Shown: piece after piece, positions 9,803 to 26,279 of the stretch | Layout: each line of letters opens with the position of its first letter | How positions within the stretch are numbered: the first letter of the stretch is position 1 | From: Methylocystis sp. H62 | Lineage (GTDB): Bacteria; Pseudomonadota; Alphaproteobacteria; Rhizobiales; Beijerinckiaceae | Direction: 5' to 3' | DNA: 64,000 nucleotides | NCBI RefSeq assembly: GCF_015709515.1 | Contig: NZ_JADNQZ010000057.1 | Location: 124,001 to 188,000, forward strand | Position numbers and translations under genes: made by a program | The notes under the pieces: generated by a model | The model's input: only the letters and a program-made list of their open reading frames with translations | Database searches by the model: none | What the model was told of the DNA's origin: nothing

Positions 9803-10690
9803 TCAACCGGCTTGGGCCGCAGCGCCTTTGAACTTCACCGGGATGCTCAAGAAGCGTGCGCCATCGCCGCGCGGCGGCGGAAACTTGCCGGCGCGAATGT
9901 TCACCTGAATTGAGGGGAGCAGCAGCCGCGGCGCGGCAAGCTCCTGGTCCCGCTTCTGTCGCCCGGCGACAAATTCCTCTTCACTGACGCCGTCCTTGAT
10001 CTGCACATTCTTGGCGCGCTGCTCGGCGACCGTCGTCTCCCATGCGTAGACGTCTCTACCGGGCGCCTTGTAGTCATGACACATGAAGAGCCGGGTCTGC
10101 GGGGGCAGGGAAAGAATGCGGCGGATCGACCGGTAGAGCGCTTGCGCGTCGCCGCCGGGGAAATCCGCGCGCGCCGTCCCATAGTCGGGCATGAACAGCG
10201 TGTCGCCGACAAACACCGCGTCGCCGATCTTATAGGCGACGTCGGCCGGCGTGTGGCCGGGCGTGTAGATCGTTTCGCCCTCGAGTTCGCCGATGTTGAA
10301 CCGCTCGCCATCCTTGAAGAGGTGGTCGAAGCATCCGCCGTCAGCCTTGACGTCCTCAGCCCCGAACACCGGCTTGAAGATCTTCTGGACCTTGTCGATG
10401 TGTTCGCCGATGCCGATCTTCGCGCCCGTCGCCGTTTTGACGATTTGGGCGGCGGAAAGATGGTCGGCGTGCGCATGGGTTTCGAGAACCCAATCGATTT
10501 TTAATCCTTCCCGCGCCGCCTCGGCGAGGATGGCGTCGATTGAATGCGAATCGGCGACGCCGCTCGCCGGATCATAATCGAGCACGGGATCGACGATCGC
10601 CGCCCGCTTCGTCGCGGGGTCGCTGACGATATAGCTGATCGTGTTGGTGGGCTCGTCAAAGAAGGCCCTGACGGACGGCGCCTGCGGCAT
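9803..10690 (-). CDS. blh: MBL-fold persulfide dioxygenase (Blh/ETHE1-like)
   Basis: About 295 residues of metallo-beta-lactamase fold with the metal motif ETHAHADHLSAA, then PGHTP, GDTLF and MCHDY. This is the pattern of mono-iron persulfide dioxygenases, which oxidise glutathione persulfide to sulfite. In Xylella and Agrobacterium the related Blh belongs to the BigR operon for sulfide detoxification; the extra DUF442 domain found there is absent here. The ATG at 10690 has AAGGAGAG five bases upstream. It is divergent from a TauE/SafE permease, and a SqrR-type box lies between them, which fits removal of persulfide followed by sulfite export. Confidence 0.85.
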   Translation of the reverse strand: MPQAPSVRAFFDEPTNTISYIVSDPATKRAAIVDPVLDYDPASGVADSHSIDAILAEAAREGLKIDWVLETHAHADHLSAAQIVKTATGAKIGIGEHIDKVQKIFKPVFGAEDVKADGGCFDHLFKDGERFNIGELEGETIYTPGHTPADVAYKIGDAVFVGDTLFMPDYGTARADFPGGDAQALYRSIRRILSLPPQTRLFMCHDYKAPGRDVYAWETTVAEQRAKNVQIKDGVSEEEFVAGRQKRDQELAAPRLLLPSIQVNIRAGKFPPPRGDGARFLSIPVKFKGAAAQAG

Positions 10691-10785
10691 CGATCTCTCC
10701 TTCTTGCAGCGCTCAAGCGCTTCTCTTCGTTCGCGCTTTCGCCTTTTCCTGCTTGCGCCGTCAGATATATATGCGTTATAGCTAA

Positions 10786-10801
10786 ATAAGCAAGTGCTAA
10801 T
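10786..10801. promoter_or_regulatory. SqrR/BigR-type box in the blh-tauE divergent promoter
   Basis: ATAA-N8-TAAT in an AT-rich stretch 23 bases before the permease start. It has the same layout as three other sites in this window and the known ATTC-N8-GAAT SqrR element, with one deviation in the left half. Binding is inferred. Confidence 0.5.
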
Positions 10802-10823
10802 ATTATACGCGCGAAGGAGCGAC

Positions 10824-11639
10824 ATGCTGACGGCTCTTCCTCTGGACGCCGTGCTGGGTCTGGTTTCCGGCGGTCTCGTCGGCTTTACGCTGGCGCTCGT
10901 CGGCGGCGGCGGCTCGGTGCTGGCCGTGCCGCTTCTCGTCTATCTTGTCGGCGTGCCCAATCCCCATATCGCGATCGGCTCGAGCGCCGCGGCCGTCGCC
11001 GTCAACGCCCTGATGAGTCTCGCCAATCATGCGCGCGCACGGACCATCAAATGGCGCTGCGCCTCTGTCTTCGCAGTGTTCGGGGTTGCTGGCGCATTCG
11101 GCGGATCGACGCTCGGCAAGATCATCGACGGCGAGAAGCTGCTGGCGCTGTTCGCGCTGCTGATGGTCGTCGTATCCTATCTGATGCTGCGGCGCCGGGG
11201 CGCGCTAGGCTATCCGGCAGTCAGGCTCAACCGCGAGAATTTCCCCCGGCTCGTCGGCGCCGGCGCCACGGCCGGCGCGCTGTCGGGCTTCTTCGGCATC
11301 GGCGGCGGCTTCCTGATCGTGCCGGGGCTGATGTTTGCGTCCGACATGCCGATCCTGAACGCCATCGGCTCGTCGCTCGTCGCCGTCGCCGCCTTCGCGG
11401 TGACAACTGCGGCGAACTACGCTTCTTCAGACCTCGTGGACTGGGAGCTTGCCGGGACGCTCGTGCTCGGCGGCGCGTTTGGCGGGCTGATCGGCGCCGC
11501 CGCGGCGCGACATCTGTCGAAGATGCGCGGCGCGCTCAGCGCCATCTTCGCGACGGTCATCTTCGCGGTGGCGCTTTATGTGCTCTGGCGCAGCGGCGGC
11601 GCGCTCGGGCTACTCGATCACGCGGCGAAATCGGCGTAG
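10824..11639 (+). CDS. TauE/SafE-family sulfite/sulfur-anion permease
   Basis: About 271 residues, very hydrophobic, with roughly eight membrane segments in two homologous halves. The family glycine motifs appear in both halves (LALVGGGGSVLAVPLLVY and SGFFGIGGGFLIVPG). TauE/SafE proteins export sulfite and related sulfur anions. The ATG at 10824 has AAGGAG upstream. Divergence from the persulfide dioxygenase, whose product is sulfite, makes sulfite export the likely task. Its last 22 bases overlap the convergent xth gene. Confidence 0.87.
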   Translation: MLTALPLDAVLGLVSGGLVGFTLALVGGGGSVLAVPLLVYLVGVPNPHIAIGSSAAAVAVNALMSLANHARARTIKWRCASVFAVFGVAGAFGGSTLGKIIDGEKLLALFALLMVVVSYLMLRRRGALGYPAVRLNRENFPRLVGAGATAGALSGFFGIGGGFLIVPGLMFASDMPILNAIGSSLVAVAAFAVTTAANYASSDLVDWELAGTLVLGGAFGGLIGAAAARHLSKMRGALSAIFATVIFAVALYVLWRSGGALGLLDHAAKSA

Positions 11640-13045: not shown

Positions 13046-14659
13046 TCACGGCTGGATGTTCGGCGGCAAATTGATGATCTGTCCTTGGCGCAGCTTCTTG
13101 CGATTCAGCGCCGGATTGGCGGCGGCGATGTCGCGCCAGCGCTTTTCGTCGCCATAGAGCCGCTTGGCGATCGCGCGCAGCGTGTCGCCGCGTCGTACCG
13201 TATAGGTCTTCTGCGCGGCGGCCGACGGCGGCGGGCGTGGCGTCGCTTGCGGCGCGCCCTGATCTGCCGAGGCGGGGGCGGATGGCAGAGATGGCGCGGC
13301 CGGCTTTGCGTCGACGACGACGAACTCCCCGCGCATCATGCCCATCCAGCAACTCCAGGGAATGACCCCCGTCTTTTCGGGCGTGAATTCGATCGTCTGC
13401 AGCCCCGGCTTGATATCGAATTCGAGCTTCAGGGAAGGCACGACGATACGATGGTTGCAGTTCGTCACTTGCGTCGCGTTGATCACCCATTTGACCGGAA
13501 CGCCGCGCAGCAGCGTGAAGCGGGCGGGCGCAAAGCCAAGGCCATTGGCCTCCATCTCGATGGTTTGAGTCTTCGGCGCGGCAGGATCCTGCTGTGGCTG
13601 GGCGAGCTCAACGGGCGCCGGGCTTCGCCAGCTCGTCACTAGCGACGCGAGATCGGCGCCCGAGCCTGTAAGGATCAATCCGCGATTGATCATCACCGCG
13701 CCGAGCGCGACGACGATCACGCCGGACGCGGTCAGCAGACGATGCGTCACGGCGCCCGAGAGCACTGTCGTCAGCGCGCCGAAGGCGAGCATCACCGGCA
13801 AGGTTCCAAGGCCGAAGACGAAGAGCGTCTTCGCGCCTTCAACGGGGCTGCCGGTCCCGGCCGCCAACACATACATCGCCTGCAACGGTCCGCAGGCGAT
13901 CATCAGACCGTTGAGAAGACCGATCACGAACGGTCGATGGCGCGCGCCGCCGGCCTCTCGATTGACCCAGTTCTGTAGCGGCCGAGGCAGTCCTAACCGA
14001 AAGCGGCGCAGCGGCGCGAACAGCCCGAGCATATTGAGCCCGAAGATGAGCAGGAAAGCGCCCGCCGCGACTCCGGCGACGCCGCGCAGCACGGGCGTGA
14101 AAGCGATGAAGGCGCCGAGCCAGCCGAAGGCGGCGCCGATCGCCGTGTAGGACAGCGTCTTTCCGGCGCCATAGGAGAGGTGCGAGACAAAGGACGAGCG
14201 TCCCGCCCGCGCATCGGCTGCGGCGTAACTCACGACAAAAGCGCCGCACATGCCCACGCAGTGGAAGCCTGTCAGGAGCCCCAAGAGAAACAGGAGTCCG
14301 AGACTCATATGCTGAGCGATGTCAGGCTCGCCCTCGGCGCTGATCCAGCGCGTATCGAAGAGAATCAAACCGGCGAGGGCGGCGAGGGCGGCGACGATGA
14401 TCGCCAGTCTGACGAAAGGCGAACGCCGGCGCTGCGCCTCTTCGGTCAGAACGACGCGATAGCCGTTCTGCTCGACGCTGTTGCGAATCGCGCTGAAATT
14501 GGTCGCATCGGCGTCATAGTCGACGACGACCGTCTCGGTGGGATAGCTGGCAGAGACCCTGCGCACGCCGACGAGCTTCCTGATCGCCGCTTCGATGACA
14601 TGCTCGCAGCCGTGGCAGTGCATGCCGCGGGCGTGAAAGGTGATCGCCGTTTCGTTCAT
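13046..14659 (-). CDS. HMA - SafE-like membrane - cupredoxin - LysM fusion protein
   Basis: A 537-residue fusion. Residues 1-70 form a heavy-metal-associated domain with GMHCHGC (Cys15, Cys18). Residues about 83-345 form a sulfite-exporter-like membrane domain starting with GLLTGFHCVGMCG, a pattern of the cytochrome-assembly/metal subfamily. Residues about 365-455 resemble a cupredoxin with His in CNHRI and Cys/Met in WSCWMGMM. A proline/alanine linker leads to a C-terminal LysM domain (TYTVRRGDTLRAIAKRLYG) that should bind peptidoglycan. Copper passing from cytosol to periplasm, or supply to an oxidase, is a fair guess. The neighbouring cytochrome genes fit, but the substrate is not proven. 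Confidence 0.75.
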   Translation of the reverse strand: MNETAITFHARGMHCHGCEHVIEAAIRKLVGVRRVSASYPTETVVVDYDADATNFSAIRNSVEQNGYRVVLTEEAQRRRSPFVRLAIIVAALAALAGLILFDTRWISAEGEPDIAQHMSLGLLFLLGLLTGFHCVGMCGAFVVSYAAADARAGRSSFVSHLSYGAGKTLSYTAIGAAFGWLGAFIAFTPVLRGVAGVAAGAFLLIFGLNMLGLFAPLRRFRLGLPRPLQNWVNREAGGARHRPFVIGLLNGLMIACGPLQAMYVLAAGTGSPVEGAKTLFVFGLGTLPVMLAFGALTTVLSGAVTHRLLTASGVIVVALGAVMINRGLILTGSGADLASLVTSWRSPAPVELAQPQQDPAAPKTQTIEMEANGLGFAPARFTLLRGVPVKWVINATQVTNCNHRIVVPSLKLEFDIKPGLQTIEFTPEKTGVIPWSCWMGMMRGEFVVVDAKPAAPSLPSAPASADQGAPQATPRPPPSAAAQKTYTVRRGDTLRAIAKRLYGDEKRWRDIAAANPALNRKKLRQGQIINLPPNIQP

Positions 14660-15198: not shown

Positions 15199-16338
15199 TC
15201 AATAATAGTAGTCGTCGCCGCGACGGATCGCCGCCTCGGTCACTGCGCCGCGCAGCACGTAATAGACCCAGCTGGTGTAGGCAAGGACGATCGGCAGAAA
15301 GACGATCACCGCGATGAGCATGAGCGAGAGCGTCCCTTTGCTCGACGACGCGTCCCAAACCGTCAGGCTTTGGCTCGGGTCAGTCGATGACGGCAGCAGG
15401 AAGGGGAACATGCTGAAGCCCGCCATCGCCGCGACGCCGGCAACCGCCAGGCTGCTGGCGAGAAGCGCGAGTCTTTTCGTCGACAAGGCGAAAGCGAGGG
15501 CGGCGACAAGCGCGCCCGTGTACGCCAGCGCGGGCGCAGCGATCATCCAGGGGTAGGCGCGGTAATTGTCGAGCCAGGCGCCGGCCTCCCGCGTCACCGT
15601 CTTCGACAATGGATTGGACGGCCCTGCGTGGTCGATGACGCCGACGATCCGATAACCTTCGACGCCGAGCATCGTCCACAATCCAGCGGCCGAAATGAGA
15701 AGAACAAGCAGGATCGCGGCGAGCGCGCCATATCGGCGGGCGCGGACGGCGACATCGCCCTCGCTCTTGACGCTGAGCCAGGCGGCGCCCTGCATTGCAA
15801 GCATCGTCACGCTGACGAGTCCGCAGAGCAGACCGAAGGGATTGAGGAGGCCGAGTAGGCCGCCCTCATAAGTCGCGCGCAGCGTCTGATCGAAATGAAA
15901 GGGAACGCCCTGCAGAAGATTGCCGAAGGCGACGCCGAAGATCAGCGCAGGGACAAATCCCGAAACGAAGAACAGCCAGTCCCAGGTCTCGCGCCAGCCG
16001 CGCGCTTCCCTCTTGCCGCGAAAGACGATGGCGACCGGCCGCAGGATGAAGCCGATGAGGACAAGCAGCATTGCGAGATAAAAGCCGGAGAAGGACACCG
16101 CATAGAGCGGCGGCCAAGCGGCGAAAACGGCGCCGCCTCCGAGAATGAACCAGACTTGATTGCCCTCCCAGACGGGTCCGATTGCGTTCAGCGTCACACG
16201 CCGCTGCGCGTCGTTGCGGGCGATGAAGGGATGCAGCATGGCGACGCCGATATCGAAACCGTCGAGGACGGCGAAGCCCGCGAGCAGGACGCCAAGCAGC
16301 GCCCACCAGATGAGACGAAGCGTCATATAGTCGAACAT
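15199..16338 (-). CDS. cydB: Cytochrome bd ubiquinol oxidase subunit II
   Basis: 379 residues with about eight to nine membrane helices. The family start (LRLIWWALLGVLLAGFAVLDGFD), the GPVWEGNQVW motif and TSWVYYVLRG near the end are all present. It forms the inner-membrane heterodimer with CydA and has no haem ligands of its own. It starts 14 bases after the cydA stop. Confidence 0.97.
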   Translation of the reverse strand: MFDYMTLRLIWWALLGVLLAGFAVLDGFDIGVAMLHPFIARNDAQRRVTLNAIGPVWEGNQVWFILGGGAVFAAWPPLYAVSFSGFYLAMLLVLIGFILRPVAIVFRGKREARGWRETWDWLFFVSGFVPALIFGVAFGNLLQGVPFHFDQTLRATYEGGLLGLLNPFGLLCGLVSVTMLAMQGAAWLSVKSEGDVAVRARRYGALAAILLVLLISAAGLWTMLGVEGYRIVGVIDHAGPSNPLSKTVTREAGAWLDNYRAYPWMIAAPALAYTGALVAALAFALSTKRLALLASSLAVAGVAAMAGFSMFPFLLPSSTDPSQSLTVWDASSSKGTLSLMLIAVIVFLPIVLAYTSWVYYVLRGAVTEAAIRRGDDYYY

Positions 16339-16352
16339 CGCTTTCGCCTTTC

Positions 16353-17924
16353 CTATTGGTTCTGCGCCGACGCCGGCGCGGGAAGCACGGGCGCGCCGGA
16401 GGGATGAGACTCATCCGACTGTGGGCCGATGCGGACATATTTGACGATCAGCGCGACATCGATGATAGCGAGCGCGCTGTAGAACAGCACGAAGGCGGCG
16501 AGGCTCGCCGCGACATTCGACGCGGGGATGTTGGAGACGCCGAGGAACGTCGGCATCGTCGCGTCGATGATCCACGGTTGCCGGCCATATTCGGCGACGA
16601 TCCAGCCGAGTTCGGCGGCGACCCAGGGCAGCGGCAGGCTATACATGACCATGCGCAGGAACCACGGCTTCCCGCAGCGGCGCTTGCTCGACAGATAGAA
16701 CGCGACGGCGAAAAGCGCGATGAAATAGAACCCCAGCGCCACCATGATGCGGAACGACCAGAACAGCACCGGCACGTCGGGAATCGTCGTAAGCGCAGCT
16801 TCATGTATCTGCGCGTCGGTCGCATTCTCGATGTCTGGGCGAATGCGCTTGACGAGCAGCGAATGGCCGACGTCGCGCATAGAGGCTTCGAGTTCCGGCG
16901 GAACCGCCGCGTTGGGATGGCCGCCTTCTTTCGCAAGCCACTGATAGCCGGCCATGCCATTGCGGATGCGCGTCTCCGCGCGCGCGACCAGCGCTTTCAC
17001 GCCTTCGACCGGCTTATCGAGCGAGCGCGTCGCAATCAGACCCAGGAGATAGGGTATGCGAATTTCGTCTTTCGTCGTTTCACTCTTGAGATCGGGAAAA
17101 CCGAAGACCGTAAAGGACGCCGGCGGCGTCTCCGTCTCCCACATCGCTTCGATCGCGGCGATCTTCATCTTCTGGTTCTCGCCCGCCGTATAGCCGCTCT
17201 CATCGCCGAGCACGACGACCGAAAGCGCGGAGGCGAGACCGAAGCTCGCCGCCACCGTCAGCGAGCGGCGAGCGATATCGACATGACGACGGTTCAAAAT
17301 GAAATAGGCGGCGATCGACATGACAAACATCGCGCCCGTGACATAGCCGGCGCTGACCGTGTGCACGAATTTCGATTGCGCCACGGGATTGAACAACACT
17401 TCGGAGAAGGACGTGAGCTCCATGCGCATCGTCTGCGGATTGAACGCGGCGCCGACCGGGTTTTGCATCCAGGCGTTGGCGACGAGAATCCAGAGCGCCG
17501 AGAAATTGGCGCCGAGCGCGACCAGCCAGGTGACGACGAGATGCTGGACCTTGCTTAAGCGTTTCCAGCCGAAGAAGAACAGGCCGACGAAGGTCGCCTC
17601 AAGGAAGAAGGCCATCAGGCCTTCGATGGCGAGCGGCGCGCCGAAAATGTCGCCCACATAGTGCGAGTAATAGGCCCAGTTGGTGCCAAATTGAAATTCC
17701 ATGGTGACGCCGGTGGCGACGCCCATGGCGAAGTTGATGCCAAACAGCGTGCCCCAGAACTGCGTCGCCTCTTTCCAGACTTTTCGTCCGGTCATCACAT
17801 AGACGCTCTCCATGATCGCGAGCAGCAGCGCGAGGCCCAGAGTCAGCGGCACGAACAGGAAGTGATACATCGCCGTCAGCGCAAACTGCAGGCGCGAGAG
17901 CGTGACGACGTCGAATTCGAACAT
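16353..17924 (-). CDS. cydA: Cytochrome bd ubiquinol oxidase subunit I
   Basis: 523 residues. Catalytic subunit that oxidises quinol and reduces oxygen without proton pumping. The haem ligands of E. coli CydA have counterparts at His21, His188 and Met394. The quinol-binding Q loop (GDESGYTAGENQKMK onward) and the GWIVAEYGRQPW motif are intact. The length and Q-loop size match the E. coli-like type. Cytochrome bd is known to keep working in the presence of sulfide, which fits the adjacent sulfide:quinone oxidoreductase. Confidence 0.98.
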   Translation of the reverse strand: MFEFDVVTLSRLQFALTAMYHFLFVPLTLGLALLLAIMESVYVMTGRKVWKEATQFWGTLFGINFAMGVATGVTMEFQFGTNWAYYSHYVGDIFGAPLAIEGLMAFFLEATFVGLFFFGWKRLSKVQHLVVTWLVALGANFSALWILVANAWMQNPVGAAFNPQTMRMELTSFSEVLFNPVAQSKFVHTVSAGYVTGAMFVMSIAAYFILNRRHVDIARRSLTVAASFGLASALSVVVLGDESGYTAGENQKMKIAAIEAMWETETPPASFTVFGFPDLKSETTKDEIRIPYLLGLIATRSLDKPVEGVKALVARAETRIRNGMAGYQWLAKEGGHPNAAVPPELEASMRDVGHSLLVKRIRPDIENATDAQIHEAALTTIPDVPVLFWSFRIMVALGFYFIALFAVAFYLSSKRRCGKPWFLRMVMYSLPLPWVAAELGWIVAEYGRQPWIIDATMPTFLGVSNIPASNVAASLAAFVLFYSALAIIDVALIVKYVRIGPQSDESHPSGAPVLPAPASAQNQ

Positions 17925-18155: not shown

Positions 18156-19439
18156 TTATGACAGTGCGCGGCGCAGCCGTTCGATGCCGAGCAGTTTCAT
18201 GATGTACCGCTCATAGACAGGCTCGCTCTGTCCCTTGCGGACCTTGCGCAGGAAGTATTTCTCATAGGCGATCTTCGCGAGATGCACCCACCGCCCCTCG
18301 CTCGACCAGTTGACGTTACGCGGCGGAATCTGCGGCTTTGCGACGAAGGCGACGCCCTTGTCGCCGAAATCCGCCAAGCAAACCGCATTCCACGTGCCTT
18401 CTTCTTTTGCATCGCGCCCAGCGATCAGCGCGGCGATATTATGCGCCGTCGCCGTCACCATCGACTCGATCATGTAGCCGGTCTTCGGCGTGCCTGTCGG
18501 CACCGGCGTCGCCTCGACCGGGGGGATCGCAACGCAGACGCCGACGCCGAAGACATTGCGATATTTCGGATTGCGCTGGTTCTTGTCGATGATGACGAAG
18601 CCGCGCGGATTGACCAGTCCCTCGACGCCCATCAGCGCATCGACGCCTTTGAAGGCGGGCATCACCATGGCGAATTTGAACGGCACTTCGTGCTCTTTCT
18701 TGACCTGTCCCTGGTCGTCGAGCTCGGCGCATTTGAGAAGGCCAGGTTCGATGGCGGTCGTCTTGGCGTTGACGATCCATTTGATGTCGCGATCGCGGAA
18801 CGCCGATTCGAGCATTCCCTTCGTATCGCCGACGCCGCCCAAACCCAGATGGCCGACATAGGGCTCGGACGTGATGTAGGTCATCGGCACCTTGTCGCGG
18901 ATGCCGCGCCGACGCAGATCGGTGGAAAGGATCATGGCGTATTCATACGCCGGACCAAAACAGGAGACGCCGGGCGCCGCGCCGACGATGATCGGACCGG
19001 GATCCTTGCAGAAATCCTCATAGGCCTTGGACGCCGTCTCGGCATGCTGCAACGTGCAAACTGAATGCGTGTGTCCGCCATGTGGTCCAAGCCCCGGCAC
19101 TTCCTCGAAAGCGAGCTTGGGGCCCGTCGCGATAACGAGATAGTCGTAGGCGACGCTCTCGCCATTCTGCAGTTCGAGACGGTTTTCGTCGGGCAGAACG
19201 CGCTTCGCGCCAACGGGAATGAAATTGATCTTCTTCTTCTTGAAGACCGGCGCGAGCGGCACCTTGAGGTCTTCCGGCTTGCGCCATTGCACCGCGAGCC
19301 ACGGGTTGGACGGCGTGAACTGGAAATTCTCGAGTTCTGAAATGACCGTAACCTGATGTTGCTTTCCTAGTCCCTCGCGGAGTTCGATCGCGGCGGCGAC
19401 GCCGCCGATCCCCGCGCCCATGACGACGATATGAGCCAT
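18156..19439 (-). CDS. sqr: Sulfide:quinone oxidoreductase
   Basis: About 427 residues. A membrane-bound FAD enzyme that oxidises sulfide and passes electrons to quinone, producing persulfide or polysulfur. The N-terminal dinucleotide fold (VVMGAGIGGVAAAIEL) and a second YDYLVIATGP motif are clear. The three redox cysteines of the family are present: Cys128 (SVCTLQHA), Cys160 (GVSCFGPAYE) and Cys354 (NAVCLADFGD). The spacing is nearly the same as in the Acidithiobacillus enzyme. The start follows GGGGGAG. It lies directly upstream of the cyd operon on the same strand, so sulfide electrons may go through quinol to the bd oxidase. Confidence 0.93.
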   Translation of the reverse strand: MAHIVVMGAGIGGVAAAIELREGLGKQHQVTVISELENFQFTPSNPWLAVQWRKPEDLKVPLAPVFKKKKINFIPVGAKRVLPDENRLELQNGESVAYDYLVIATGPKLAFEEVPGLGPHGGHTHSVCTLQHAETASKAYEDFCKDPGPIIVGAAPGVSCFGPAYEYAMILSTDLRRRGIRDKVPMTYITSEPYVGHLGLGGVGDTKGMLESAFRDRDIKWIVNAKTTAIEPGLLKCAELDDQGQVKKEHEVPFKFAMVMPAFKGVDALMGVEGLVNPRGFVIIDKNQRNPKYRNVFGVGVCVAIPPVEATPVPTGTPKTGYMIESMVTATAHNIAALIAGRDAKEEGTWNAVCLADFGDKGVAFVAKPQIPPRNVNWSSEGRWVHLAKIAYEKYFLRKVRKGQSEPVYERYIMKLLGIERLRRALS

Positions 19440-19537: not shown

Positions 19538-20206
19538 TTAGTCACGCTGTGCGTCGCAGAGCGAACGCAATGCCGCGAGATTGACGATCTCGGCGCCGCC
19601 GCGCGACAATTTCACCCAGCCTGAACGCTCGAACGATTTCAGCGTACGGCCGACGACTTCACGCGCGGTGCCGAGATCCGCGGCGAGCGCCTGCTGCGTC
19701 GCCGCGATCTTGTCGCCGGCGCCGCGCAGCGCGAGAAGACGTTCGGCCAAGCGAACATTGATGCGCGTGCAGACAATCTCCTCGATGCGCGACATCAGCG
19801 AGGCAAGACGCTTGCCGTAGCCGTCGAACACCAGCGCACGGAAACCTTCCGACGCGTTCATCAACGCGCTAAAACGATCGGCGGGCACAACAAAGGCGAT
19901 GACGTCAGTTTCCGCGACCCCCTCGGCCGCGTAGGCGTCGTCCGAAAGCAGCGAGGCTGTCGTCAGAACGCAGGTTTCGTTCGCGCCGACCCGGTAAAGC
20001 ACGATTTCCCGGCCCGATTCGGTCACCCGCTGCACCCGCACGGAGCCCGAGACGATCAGCGGAAAATGGACGCATTGATCGCCCGGCCGAAACAGCACGG
20101 CGCCGCGCGGAATTTGCTTGCGCACCGCGGAGTCCCGCAGAAGCGTCTTCGTCGCCGCGTCGAGGCTGCGCAAGGAAGGCGTTTCGTCGATCCAATCGGA
20201 CGGCAT
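19538..20206 (-). CDS. Crp/Fnr-family transcriptional regulator
   Basis: About 222 residues. An N-terminal cyclic-nucleotide-binding-like barrel (ending GSVRVQRVTESGREIVLYRV) is joined to a C-terminal winged helix (TQQALAADLGTAREVVGRTLKSFERSG). The barrel lacks the Fnr iron-sulfur cysteine cluster at its N-terminus but has two isolated cysteines (Cys45 and Cys79), which could sense thiols or persulfides. I used the ATG at 20206, with GAAGGGC upstream, over a GTG at 20227. Its position between sqr and the SqrR-like gene suggests control of sulfide genes. Confidence 0.85.
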   Translation of the reverse strand: MPSDWIDETPSLRSLDAATKTLLRDSAVRKQIPRGAVLFRPGDQCVHFPLIVSGSVRVQRVTESGREIVLYRVGANETCVLTTASLLSDDAYAAEGVAETDVIAFVVPADRFSALMNASEGFRALVFDGYGKRLASLMSRIEEIVCTRINVRLAERLLALRGAGDKIAATQQALAADLGTAREVVGRTLKSFERSGWVKLSRGGAEIVNLAALRSLCDAQRD

Positions 20207-20294
20207 CGTCTGCCCTTCGTCGCTCACGATCCAAAGTCTTCACTTAAGCGCGCTGCGAACGATTAACGCACCCATGCTGAACGTCGATGACGCC

Positions 20295-20495
20295 CTAGAA
20301 GGCGGCGCCTGATTTGGCGCCGTACCGCTTCAGCGCCATCGCCAATGGGCAGAGGCCCGTGAAGGCCGCCTGCAACAGGTTGACGCCGACGAAAGCGGTG
20401 AGCAAGAGCCACCACGGACTGAACAACTGCGCCAAAAGCAGGCTCAGGAGAACCATGGTCCCGGCGAAAGCCATAACAATGCGATCAATGCTCAT
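20295..20495 (-). CDS. DUF2892 (YgaP membrane-domain-like) protein
   Basis: 66 residues with two hydrophobic segments and the family pattern MSIDRIVMAFAG...GLCPLAMALKRYG, containing one cysteine in the second half. The ATG overlaps the stop of the upstream ArsR-type gene by four bases (ATGA). In BigR operons a DUF2892 protein is typically cotranscribed with the regulator, as here. The rhodanese partner is encoded separately at 25935. Confidence 0.88.
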   Translation of the reverse strand: MSIDRIVMAFAGTMVLLSLLLAQLFSPWWLLLTAFVGVNLLQAAFTGLCPLAMALKRYGAKSGAAF

Positions 20496-20851
20496 CGCGT
20501 GAGTTCCTTCGATTTGGCGCGCGCGCGTGGTTTGGCCGGCTTGCCACACTGCCCGGCGCAGAACATTTCATAGAGCAGTCCGATGATCCGCGAGACATTG
20601 CCGTCGGCCAGGGAATAGTAAATCGTCTGCGATTCGCGGCGGGTCTTGACGAGCTTGTCTTCGCGCAACCGCGCCAGATGCTGCGAGAGCGACGATTGGC
20701 TCAGTCCAATCGCCTCCTGCAGCTTTGTCACTGACAGCTCGCCACCGTGCAGCTGACAAAGCACCATCAACCGATGGCGGTTTGCCAGCGCCTTGAGAAA
20801 GCTTTCGGCCTCCGCAGCCTTTGGCGCGAGCGCGAGCAGATTTACATTCAT
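20492..20851 (-). CDS. sqrR: SqrR/BigR-like ArsR-family persulfide-sensing repressor
   Basis: 119 residues with the winged-helix pattern FLKALANRHRLMVLCQL ... LSQSSLSQHLARLREDKLV. The metal-site residues of classic ArsR proteins are missing. Instead, Cys32 and Cys98 occupy the positions of the two redox cysteines of SqrR and BigR, which form a tetrasulfide bridge when persulfides rise; an extra Cys102 follows. It is cotranscribed with a DUF2892 gene and divergent from the HiPIP-like gene. A matching ATTA-N8-GAAT box lies ten bases before its start, so autorepression is likely. There is no clear Shine-Dalgarno. Confidence 0.85.
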   Translation of the reverse strand: MNVNLLALAPKAAEAESFLKALANRHRLMVLCQLHGGELSVTKLQEAIGLSQSSLSQHLARLREDKLVKTRRESQTIYYSLADGNVSRIIGLLYEMFCAGQCGKPAKPRARAKSKELTR

Positions 20852-20860
20852 GATCGCTAA

Positions 20861-20876
20861 ATTACGATTATCGAAT
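20861..20876. promoter_or_regulatory. SqrR-type box before the sqrR-like gene
   Basis: ATTA-N8-GAAT, one base different from the published SqrR element ATTC-N8-GAAT. It lies ten bases upstream of the regulator start codon, where binding would block its own transcription. Confidence 0.65.
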
Positions 20877-20950
20877 ATACTTGTCAAGCGCGCGCATCGG
20901 CGCCGCCGAAGAGCGTTTATGTCGCATTCAAGCCGACAGGAATGCGGTAT

Positions 20951-20966
20951 ATTACATACTTCTAAT
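20951..20966. promoter_or_regulatory. SqrR-type box before the HiPIP-like gene
   Basis: ATTA-N8-TAAT, 47 bases upstream of the HiPIP-like start, in AT-rich DNA. Its right flank TCTAATTTAA is nearly the same as that of the RND operon site. Confidence 0.6.
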
Positions 20967-21012
20967 TTAATGAAATCGTCCGAGAACGGACGAATTGCGA
21001 AGGGAGAGTGAA

Positions 21013-21249
21013 ATGGCTGAATGTCTCGCGCCGACGCGCCGCTCCTTGATGTTGCTGTTGGGCGCGGCCGCCGCTGGACTGAGCACAACGAGCGCGCAAG
21101 CGAAGTCGAGCAAATTGGCGGCCGCCTATCGCGGCGCCCCGAACGGGCGGCAAAGTTGCGCGAACTGCTCCTGGTTCAACGCCCCGTCAGGCTGCGGCGT
21201 GGTGAGTGGGCCCGTCAGCGCGCGTGGCTGGTGCAATCTTTGGGGCTGA
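21013..21249 (+). CDS. HiPIP-like high-potential iron-sulfur protein, Tat-type signal
   Basis: 78 residues. A twin-arginine leader (TRRSLMLLLGAAAAGLS) ends near Ala30, so the protein should be folded and then exported. The mature part of fewer than 50 residues contains Cys49, Cys52, Cys61 and Cys74 in the pattern C-x2-C-x8-C-x12-C. With RGWCNLW at the end, this is the small HiPIP type. HiPIPs carry single electrons in the periplasm. It is divergent from the sqrR-like gene, with a SqrR-type box upstream and GGGAGAG as ribosome binding site. A role in sulfide-linked electron transfer is inferred. Confidence 0.78.
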   Translation: MAECLAPTRRSLMLLLGAAAAGLSTTSAQAKSSKLAAAYRGAPNGRQSCANCSWFNAPSGCGVVSGPVSARGWCNLWG

Positions 21250-21296
21250 CGCGGCCGCATGGAATTCGGCGGCTGCGCGCCGCTCTCTCCTTCCCG

Positions 21297-21326
21297 AACT
21301 TAAATTCGCTATTGCTAATTTAAGTT
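21297..21326. promoter_or_regulatory. Perfect inverted repeat with SqrR-type box before the RND operon
   Basis: AACTTAAATT-N10-AATTTAAGTT, ten perfect bases per arm. It contains the core ATTC-N8-TAAT at 21304-21319. It ends 21 bases before the start of the membrane fusion protein gene, the usual place for a repressor site. Confidence 0.7.
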
Positions 21327-21347
21327 GTGTGCATATAACTGGGCTGC

Positions 21348-22330
21348 ATGAGATCAATGTGCCGCTTCCATTTTGCGCCGACGGCGCTCCTCGCCGCGCT
21401 TGCCTTGTCCTCGGGCGTCAAGGCCGGAGAGGTCACGATCCGGGTCGCCCCCGTCGAGGACCTTAAAGCCGTCGTCGCCTCGGTCGAGCCGGCGCATCAA
21501 TTGACGGCGCGGGCGCGCATCGGCGGCACCGTGAGCGCGCTCAAGATCAAAGAGGGCGATGACGTCGCCGGCGGCGCGGAGATCGCGTCGGTCGTCGATC
21601 AGAAGCTTTTTCTGCAGATGCAGGCCCTCGATCAGCGCATCCGCTCTCAGCAGGCGCAGCGCGAGAAGGCGCAGGGCGATTTCGATCGCGCGCAGGAACT
21701 GTTTCGGCGCGGCGTCTATACCAAGGCGCTCTTTGATCAGGCGAAGACGGCGCTCGACGTCGCCGACCGCAACCTCTCGGCCCTGCGCTCCGATCGCAGC
21801 GTTATCGAGCAGCAGGCGGCGGAAGGCTCGGTGCGCGCGCCGGGACCAGGGCGCATCCTCACCATTCCGGTTTCCGTGGGGCGCGTCGTCATGCCCGGCG
21901 AAACCATCGCGACGATCGCCGAAGACAAATATATCCTGCGTCTGCAATTGCCTGAGCGCCACGCGCGCTTCATGCGGGCCGGCGACAAGGTCGAGATCGG
22001 CGCGCGCGGCCTGCACGAAGAGGCGGGCGGCGGGCGCAAGCAGGGTCGCGTGCGCATCGTCTATCCCGAAATTCAGGGCGGCCGCGTCATCGCCGACGTC
22101 GACGTCGTCGGGCTCGGCGACTATTTCGTCGGCGAACGGGCGCGGGTTTATGTCACGACGGGCAAGCGCGACACGATCATCCTCCCGCGCAGCGCGGTCT
22201 ATCGACGCGCCGGCGTGGATTTCGTCCGACTCGCCTCCGGCGAAGAAGTCGTCATTCAGCTTGGCGAAGCGCACGGCGACGGCGTCGAGATTCTTTCCGG
22301 CCTCCATGACGGCGACCTGGTGTCGACGCC

Positions 22331-22334
<4 letters not shown>
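21348..22334 (+). CDS. RND efflux periplasmic adaptor (membrane fusion protein)
   Basis: 328 residues with a signal peptide (ALLAALALSSGVKA). The usual adaptor domains follow: split lipoyl domain (GGTVSALKIKEGDDVAGG), a long alpha hairpin rich in Gln/Arg/Ala (residues about 85-150), a beta barrel and a membrane-proximal region. It bridges the inner-membrane pump and an outer-membrane channel; no channel gene is present here. Its stop overlaps the pump start (ATGA). Confidence 0.9.
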
Positions 22335-25563
<3,229 letters not shown>

Positions 25564-25567
<4 letters not shown>

Positions 25568-25917
25568 TCGAAGACTGGGCGGCGCTCGCCAAGAAGCTCG
25601 CCGCCGACATAAGAGAATTGCGCGTCGGCTCGCCTGAGGTGATGAAGGCCTTTTCGGCAATGGCGATCTCGGCGGGCGCGCAAGGCGCGCTCGACCCCAA
25701 GACAAAGGAACTGATCGCGCTTGCGGTCAGCGTCGCGGTGCGCTGCGACGATTGCATCGCTTTCCACGCCAAGGCCGCGTCACAGCGCGGCGCGACGCGC
25801 GAGGAGGTGATGGAGACGCTCGCCATGAGCATCTACATGGGCGCCGGACCGTCGGTGATGTATGCGAGCCACGCGCTCGCCGCCTTCACCCAGTTCGACG
25901 CCGAAAAGCAGGCCTGA
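25564..25917 (+). CDS. Carboxymuconolactone decarboxylase/AhpD-like protein
   Basis: 117 residues with the AhpD-like active site C61-D-D-C64-IAF-H68 after the helix LDPKTKELIALAVSVAVR. Proteins with this CxxCxxxH pattern are peroxidase or disulfide-reductase partners, unlike true carboxymuconolactone decarboxylases, which lack the cysteines. Its ATG overlaps the RND pump stop (ATGA), so it is translated with the pump, an unusual pairing. A thiol or persulfide reductase role is inferred. Confidence 0.88.
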
Positions 25918-25934: not shown

Positions 25935-26279
25935 ATGGCTCTGGGCTCTCTCTTGTCGAAACTCGCGGGCGGCGGCGGCGCGGCGCCGACGATCGAGCAT
26001 GAGGATTTCTGCCGCGTCGTCGCGGACAAATCCTGCGCCATCGTCGATGTGCGCGAACCGCATGAATATGGCGCCGGGCATGTGCCGGGGGCCAAGAACA
26101 TGCCGCTCTCGAGCTTCGATCCGACAAAGCTTCCGAAGGGCGACGTTGTCCTCATTTGCCAGGCGGGCGGGCGTTCGGCCAAGGCGCTGGCCCAGGCGCA
26201 GGGCGCCGGACGAAAGGATCTTCGCCACTATGCGCCGGGCACCGGCGGCTGGCGCGCGCGCGGTGGCGCGGTGGAATAA
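25935..26279 (+). CDS. Rhodanese-domain sulfurtransferase
   Basis: 114 residues, a single rhodanese domain with IVDVREPHEYGAGHVPGAKNMP and the active-site loop C75-QAGGRS. Such proteins carry persulfide sulfur on the cysteine. It follows the AhpD-like gene by 17 bases with GAAAGGAAC upstream and ends the RND operon. Together with the SqrR-type box at the operon start, it ties the pump to persulfide metabolism. Confidence 0.92.
   Translation: MALGSLLSKLAGGGGAAPTIEHEDFCRVVADKSCAIVDVREPHEYGAGHVPGAKNMPLSSFDPTKLPKGDVVLICQAGGRSAKALAQAQGAGRKDLRHYAPGTGGWRARGGAVE

Follow-up and report, generated by a model that had tools for sequence, protein, structure and literature searches.

A SqrR/BigR/YgaV-type ArsR regulator and its predicted sulfide-detoxification regulon in Methylocystis

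The closest described systems belong to the SqrR/BigR/YgaV/HlyU group of ArsR-type regulators. The excerpt of PMC9774250 deduces sites of the form ATTC-N8-GAAT for SqrR and places YgaV over its own promoter as an autorepressor, and that of PMC5823870 puts BigR on the -10 region, from which it is freed by H2S and polysulfides. In the excerpts concerned, HlyU is a persulfide sensor with the same cysteine pair (PMC10509353), and NolR has the consensus (A/T)TTAG-N9-A(T/A) (PMC12445080). Sulfane-sulfur regulators of the sHdrR/SoxR type have sqr, pdo, rhodanese, TauE and RND pump genes as neighbours, according to the excerpt of PMC12423496. The excerpts of PMC9995734 and PMC10128140 contain nothing on RND pumps as targets of an ArsR-type SqrR, the ‘sqrR’ in that of PMC10128140 being a sigma-54-type regulator, and among the matches listed in the open-licence literature no title concerns a HiPIP or multicopper oxidase under persulfide sensing, SqrR or Methylocystis sulfide. 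Judged against these systems, the predicted regulon described below would be run by a switch of an established type that acts on an unusual set of targets: SqrR-type regulation, and RND pumps as neighbours (PMC12423496), are known, while the predicted HiPIP and oxidase targets look new.

The window analysed is a stretch of 64,000 nucleotides, corresponding to positions 124,001-188,000 of its contig (C57) in a 4.54 Mb Methylocystis genome (G000). Methylocystis is a genus of aerobic methanotrophs, which live where methane and sulfide meet. The window encodes an ArsR-family regulator of 119 amino acids (20492..20851, minus strand), carrying Cys32, Cys98 and Cys102 and sharing 96-99% identity with the regulators of several named Methylocystis strains. 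The ArsR winged-helix fold is recognized (PF01022, 40.3 bits), and the best match of solved structure is SqrR (7e-24), followed by HlyU (2.4e-23), NolR (2e-20), BigR (8.3e-18) and YgaV (2.9e-15). A SqrR/BigR-type Cys32/Cys98 pair, as proposed in the first-pass annotation, is confirmed by the alignment to these relatives, where both residues correspond to cysteines in SqrR and Cys98 also to a cysteine in HlyU, and by its presence in 45/45 aligned regulator rows, a set in which the query itself, identical records and second copies that have diverged are all counted. Cys102 occurs in 33 of the 45 rows, and the three other ArsR-type matches of the same genome are without the pair. Fold, cysteine pair and an ATTC-N8-GAAT-like predicted operator over its own promoter place the regulator in the SqrR/BigR/YgaV/HlyU group.

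The locus resembles SqrR of Rhodobacter capsulatus in the regulator's best solved relative, the cysteine pair and the site ATTC-N8-GAAT, and differs from SqrR as presented in the excerpt of PMC9774250 in that boxes also reach an RND operon, a HiPIP gene and a multicopper oxidase gene. The BigR operon of Xylella/Agrobacterium likewise combines a cysteine pair (Cys42/Cys108) with persulfide dioxygenase and TauE-type targets and, in the excerpt of PMC5823870, with binding at the -10 region, which is predicted here; unlike BigR, however, the regulator does not reach the NCBIfam equivalog model (NF040642; 91 bits vs the cut-off of 155), the dioxygenase is without DUF442, and the two lie approximately 10 kb apart. 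As in YgaV-YgaP of Escherichia coli, the regulator gene adjoins a gene for a YgaP-like transmembrane protein, and the autorepression at the YgaV promoter (excerpt of PMC9774250) has its counterpart in the predicted operator, but the gene here encodes only a transmembrane part of 66 residues while a separate rhodanese sits in the RND run. Compared with the neighbourhoods in the excerpt of PMC12423496 (section 2.1), HiPIP and multicopper oxidase are additions not mentioned there. NolR is close in sequence and has an ATTAG-type half-site consensus (excerpt of PMC12445080), but the targets here are sulfide genes. The close matches to NolR and HlyU, and the fit of ATTAG-N9-AT boxes to the NolR consensus, could also mean that a NolR- or HlyU-like ArsR regulator acts on similar DNA in response to a signal other than persulfide, such as general redox state or growth phase. 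We regard this as quite unlikely, since HlyU has itself been described as a sensor of persulfide that carries this pair (excerpt of PMC10509353), the pair is invariant, and the targets are related to sulfide.

The genes in question are arranged in several runs. On the minus strand, the regulator gene is followed by genes encoding a DUF2892/YgaP-like transmembrane protein (20295..20495; PF11127, 48.7 bits), a CRP/FNR-type regulator with cNMP-binding and HTH_Crp_2 domains (19538..20227) and a sulfide:quinone reductase (SQR; 18156..19439), with gaps of 67 and 98 bases within the run. The SQR assignment is based on matches to the solved sulfide-quinone reductases 3sz0 (3.7e-161, spanning residues 2-424 of 427) and 3hyv (1.8e-120). 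On the plus strand, a small PioC-like HiPIP (21013..21249; 9.6e-10 to PioC) carries a twin-arginine-like signal and the motif CxxC-x8-C-x12-C, and its Pfam HIPIP score of 22.2 bits is marginal to the gathering threshold of 22.0. This gene is followed by an RND run on the same strand, comprising a periplasmic adaptor (MFP; 21348..22334; TIGR01730, 115.6 bits, above the cut-off), a permease of the AcrB superfamily (22331..25567; PF00873, 485.8 bits), an AhpD/CMD-like protein (25564..25917; PF02627, TIGR00778) and, at its end, a single-domain rhodanese (25935..26279; PF00581, 47.2 bits). As the permease falls under the listed NCBIfam subfamily cut-offs, its assignment goes no further than the superfamily. 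Further away, a persulfide dioxygenase of the ETHE1/Blh type with a metallo-beta-lactamase fold (PDO; 9803..10693, minus; 3.5e-104 to 9g8t and 2.6e-17 to human ETHE1) diverges from a TauE/SafE-type sulfite exporter (10824..11639, plus; PF01925, 163.2 bits). The dioxygenase gene had been named blh, a name which fits its dioxygenase half only: the DUF442 half is absent, as the protein scores 379 vs a cut-off of 625 with the bifunctional Blh model (NF040641) and covers positions 140-421 of its 423. Elsewhere in the genome (G000:C58), a multicopper oxidase with a twin-arginine-like signal has a predicted box upstream; it is CueO-like only, with a score of 235 vs a cut-off of 525 (NF008205) obtained on a sequence cut C-terminally by the end of the locus.

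The first-pass annotation had proposed that the regulator controls itself, the HiPIP gene, the RND operon and the PDO/TauE pair through four intergenic boxes. All four are located where it placed them: those at 20861-20876 (ATTACGATTATCGAAT), 20951-20966 (ATTACATACTTCTAAT) and 21304-21319 (ATTCGCTATTGCTAAT) fit ATTM-N8-KAAT exactly, and the one at 10786-10801 (ATAAGCAAGTGCTAAT) with one mismatch. They are also intergenic if TauE starts at ATG 10824, while the fourth overlaps the longer TauE frame that would start at GTG 10794. The genome-wide motif scan that had been suggested gave a divided result. In favour of the proposal, three exact places are packed into 459 bp. Against it, the exact 16-base motif is found at 82 places vs 18 for the reversed control, and at up to one mismatch it occurs 17 times in the window, i.e. 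less often than expected (mean of 39.25 in 100 shuffles). Being that common in the genome and without enrichment in the window, the motif as written cannot define a regulon and was rejected for this use; likewise, WAATTMG-N6-CKAATTW at up to three mismatches was discarded as too loose (600 vs 478 in the reversed control). The predicted operator that is conserved is longer than this motif, encompassing about 22 bases.

The extended pattern, TAWATTMR-N7-KWATWTA, was obtained from an alignment of 32 of the 56 distinct genus boxes and was also drawn by eye from the boxes upstream of the regulator. It occurs exactly at five places in the 4.54 Mb, before the regulator, the HiPIP gene, the RND operon and the multicopper oxidase gene and at G000:C56:110231, the last of which was set aside as lspA-like coding sequence, a context read from the copy in another genome (G009, L081); the PDO/TauE box departs from the pattern at one base. 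With two mismatches allowed, the two strands have 30 and 31 occurrences vs 18 and 23 for the reversed control, hence little weight can be given to any but the highest-ranking places. A symmetrized 22-base weight matrix was trained on boxes found across the genus at the regulator, HiPIP and RND promoters, including those of the window, with the PDO-TauE and oxidase sites outside the training set. Predicted operators of 22 bp are located before the RND operon (21301..21322; score 36.3; no mismatch on either strand), the HiPIP gene (20948..20969; 32.3; no mismatch), the regulator (20858..20879; 31.9; no mismatch) and the oxidase gene (28.1), as well as between PDO and TauE (10783..10804; 22.4; one mismatch). 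Among the 42 scored places of the extended-pattern list, all within two mismatches, the PDO box is the weakest of the predicted operators and ranks under the lspA-like coding site (23.4), and is itself followed by a place on contig C53 (20.5). None of 2000 dinucleotide shuffles of the regulator-HiPIP and HiPIP-MFP spacers reaches their scores, which come from boxes in the training set, and outside the training set the PDO-TauE score is reached by 1/2000 and the oxidase score by 0/2000. These shuffles, together with the recurrence of the boxes at orthologous promoters within Methylocystis and ahead of the regulator gene in other genera described below, make it highly improbable that the boxes are chance AT-rich matches, a reading to which the frequency of the 16-base motif (82 places) and its lack of enrichment in the window would otherwise lend itself.

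In order to follow the boxes across Methylocystis, the regulator was searched for in 39 genomes, of which 38 gave a match (E <= 0.001), in many cases just to a distant ArsR gene, and the 30 best places were taken. A box scoring at least 15 precedes the regulator gene in 29/30 loci, the PDO gene in 29/30 (the miss being L077 of genome G034) and the oxidase gene in 29/30 (the miss being L150 of the same genome). Counted by gene position, a box precedes the HiPIP gene in all 22 loci with a HiPIP match and the MFP gene in all 26 loci with an MFP nearby, although five of the latter (L032, L034, L045, L046 and L047) have the shared regulator box as their highest-scoring site. Many of these loci are from close relatives, and the counts are not independent events. 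Between CRP and SQR, a box with scores of 26.9-33.5 is found in 9/26 loci with both genes in view (L035-L038 and L040-L044), which ties SQR directly to the predicted regulon in these; it is found in 0/17 loci of the window's own clade, and in the window genome itself the best score there is -7.1 (L018), so that SQR would be reachable only via the regulator's gene run.

The position of the boxes relative to the regulator bears on a more restricted reading, according to which the regulator controls its neighbours only (itself, HiPIP and RND), the PDO/TauE and oxidase boxes being those of another protein or mainly AT-rich promoter sequence. Indeed, the PDO and oxidase boxes (22.4 and 28.1) are weaker than those of the three neighbours, and likely -10 hexamers directly adjoin the PDO and RND boxes. 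A blind covariance-model search (8 genomes; 150 of the 223 candidates scored in G000) returned sites at its training promoters, sites whose coordinates put them upstream of MFP (G012) and of SQR (G008), and G005:C1:2277228, but not the PDO and oxidase sites; within the window, the model gave the PDO region 7.9 bits only, at a shifted place. However, the same palindrome is present at PDO and at the oxidase in 29 of the 30 loci each, the out-of-sample shuffles almost never reach its scores (1/2000 and 0/2000), and every other ArsR-type match of the genome is without the cysteine pair. We therefore consider control of neighbours only to be unlikely, and in our judgement the regulator is probably a persulfide-sensing ArsR repressor of the SqrR/BigR/YgaV group, acting over the promoters of a five-unit sulfide-detoxification regulon. 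The four promoters proposed in the first-pass annotation are retained, being supported at the sequence level by boxes conserved at orthologous promoters, by SqrR as the best match and by the cysteine pair, but the regulon is probably larger than proposed, including SQR after the regulator, the rhodanese that ends the RND run and the oxidase with its conserved box.

Regulator and boxes do not consistently occur together across the genomes of the genus. G034 lacks a close regulator, a box before PDO (a weak site of 13.6 lies about 107 bp upstream) and one before the oxidase (L150). By contrast, G035 (97% complete) and G026 (64%) have a PDO box although no close regulator turned up in them, and G037 (99% complete), in the same situation, has a weak site of 20.2 before a diverged PDO. 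In the genomes with diverged regulators G001, G004 and G017, no box precedes the oxidase even when two mismatches are allowed, and among six more distant oxidase loci one has such a box (L158). Sites within about 110 bp are present at two of the four more distant PDO loci with upstream sequence (L151 and L152), while those of L153 and L154 stand before a different ArsR gene. At L077, L153 and L154, for which the search gave no close regulator, the ArsR gene in the vicinity of PDO is a different one that lacks the cysteine pair, which suggests that control of PDO has been rewired. As a separate observation, a further copy of the regulator, diverged but retaining the cysteine pair, occurs in several genomes of the genus (L161-L169), mostly without a recognizable box nearby.

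Within the family, the regulator is matched at 1e-25 in 22/119 drawn genomes, four of which belong to the window's genus, and the remaining 18 yielded 20 loci. In 12 of these 20, an MFP-RND operon diverges from regulator-DUF2892 over a shared spacer, and a box of at least 15 is present in 11 of the 12 and in 14/20 loci overall. PDO is nearby in four other loci (L190, L192, L193 and L194), and no HiPIP match at 1e-8 was obtained in any of the 20. The two Methylocapsa loci (L015 and L016) have the arrangement RND-regulator-DUF2892-SQR, with no HiPIP match at 1e-4. With the pump-regulator arrangement present and HiPIP not found at these loci of other genera, the pair of pump and regulator looks older, and the links to HiPIP, PDO/TauE and oxidase look like additions in Methylocystis, the evidence from other genera being that of the regulator loci. 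The CRP/FNR gene located between DUF2892 and SQR in Methylocystis (20293-20237 region) also has no match in L015 and L016.

The predicted operators are closely interwoven with the promoters. For the regulator, the likely promoter (20859..20887, minus) consists of TTGACA (20887-20882) and, after 17 bases, TAATTT (20864-20859), which is a poor -10 and lies inside the operator; a scan for consensus promoters did not list it and gave none at PDO/TauE. The TTGAC is located 36 bases upstream of the regulator start codon in 28/30 loci and 35 bases in the other two. This arrangement predicts that the regulator message would be leaderless and that repression would occur by covering the promoter. Moreover, a second, overlapping palindrome (20843..20864; score 19.2) is found 15 bp off, over the regulator start codon, and weaker overlapping sites accompany the operators of RND (21316-21337; 17.3) and PDO/TauE (10768-10789; 20.4). 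Around strong sites (score of at least 22; 153 distinct), 100/306 neighbours at exactly 15 bp score at least 10, pairs of strong sites being counted twice, vs at most two at each of the other offsets from 1 to 30; part of this signal follows from the half-site itself, which reads almost identically in both registers. The outer half-site is present at 29/29 regulator promoters, 17/19 in the RND range and 25/29 for PDO, rare in the HiPIP range (1 right and 2 left of 25) and absent at the oxidase (0/29). The fixed-distance ranges used here contain a site in 25/30 loci for HiPIP, at least one of which (L040) is really the RND-side box, and in 19/30 for RND. At the regulator the outer half-site overlaps the start codon, whereas for RND and PDO it falls on likely -10 hexamers and was not accepted as proof of a second dimer. 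The predicted doubling is most convincing at the regulator, because the start-codon and upstream palindromes have similar scores in some other genera (29.9 and 27.1 in L183, and 29.9 and 31.1 in L187).

In the model that we favour, the reduced regulator would bind palindromes of about 22 bp (TAWATTMR-N7-KWATWTA) on core promoters and shut off five units, i.e. regulator and DUF2892, probably with CRP and SQR; HiPIP; MFP-RND-AhpD-like-rhodanese; PDO/TauE; and the multicopper oxidase (G000:C58). Sulfide would raise persulfides, Cys32 and Cys98 would be bridged by sulfur and the repressor would leave the DNA, both DNA binding and persulfide release being assigned by analogy with the family. SQR would then oxidize sulfide, rhodanese and PDO would pass the persulfide on to sulfite, TauE would export the sulfite, and the pump and the periplasmic redox proteins would handle the remainder; here, we infer operon extent, pump substrate and the roles of HiPIP and oxidase. 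Such a conserved regulon offers a short, testable list of genes for tolerance of sulfide, to which the HiPIP and the multicopper oxidase add two redox proteins of the periplasm. More tentatively, and with considerable doubt on our part, the repressor may couple the detoxification of sulfide in the cytoplasm to a redox module in the periplasm (the PioC-like HiPIP and the CueO-like oxidase) that is co-induced with SQR, PDO and the pump, and two dimers on the regulator's palindromes 15 bp apart may give a threshold other than that of the single-box HiPIP and oxidase promoters. If this is true, HiPIP and oxidase could maintain the copper and iron of the periplasm, and hence the methane monooxygenase, a copper-dependent enzyme, in working order under sulfide.

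Some further features of the genome are worth recording. Following SQR on the same strand, the window encodes subunits II and I of a cytochrome bd oxidase (15199-17924), and bd oxidases are known for tolerating sulfide; of the 15 highest-scoring weight-matrix sites listed for the window, none stands before these genes. A single open frame at 13046-14659 joins HMA, DsbD-like, cupredoxin and LysM domains. On another contig (L171; G000:C41:19000-21500), an ArsR-rhodanese fusion adjoins a gene with a metallo-beta-lactamase fold.
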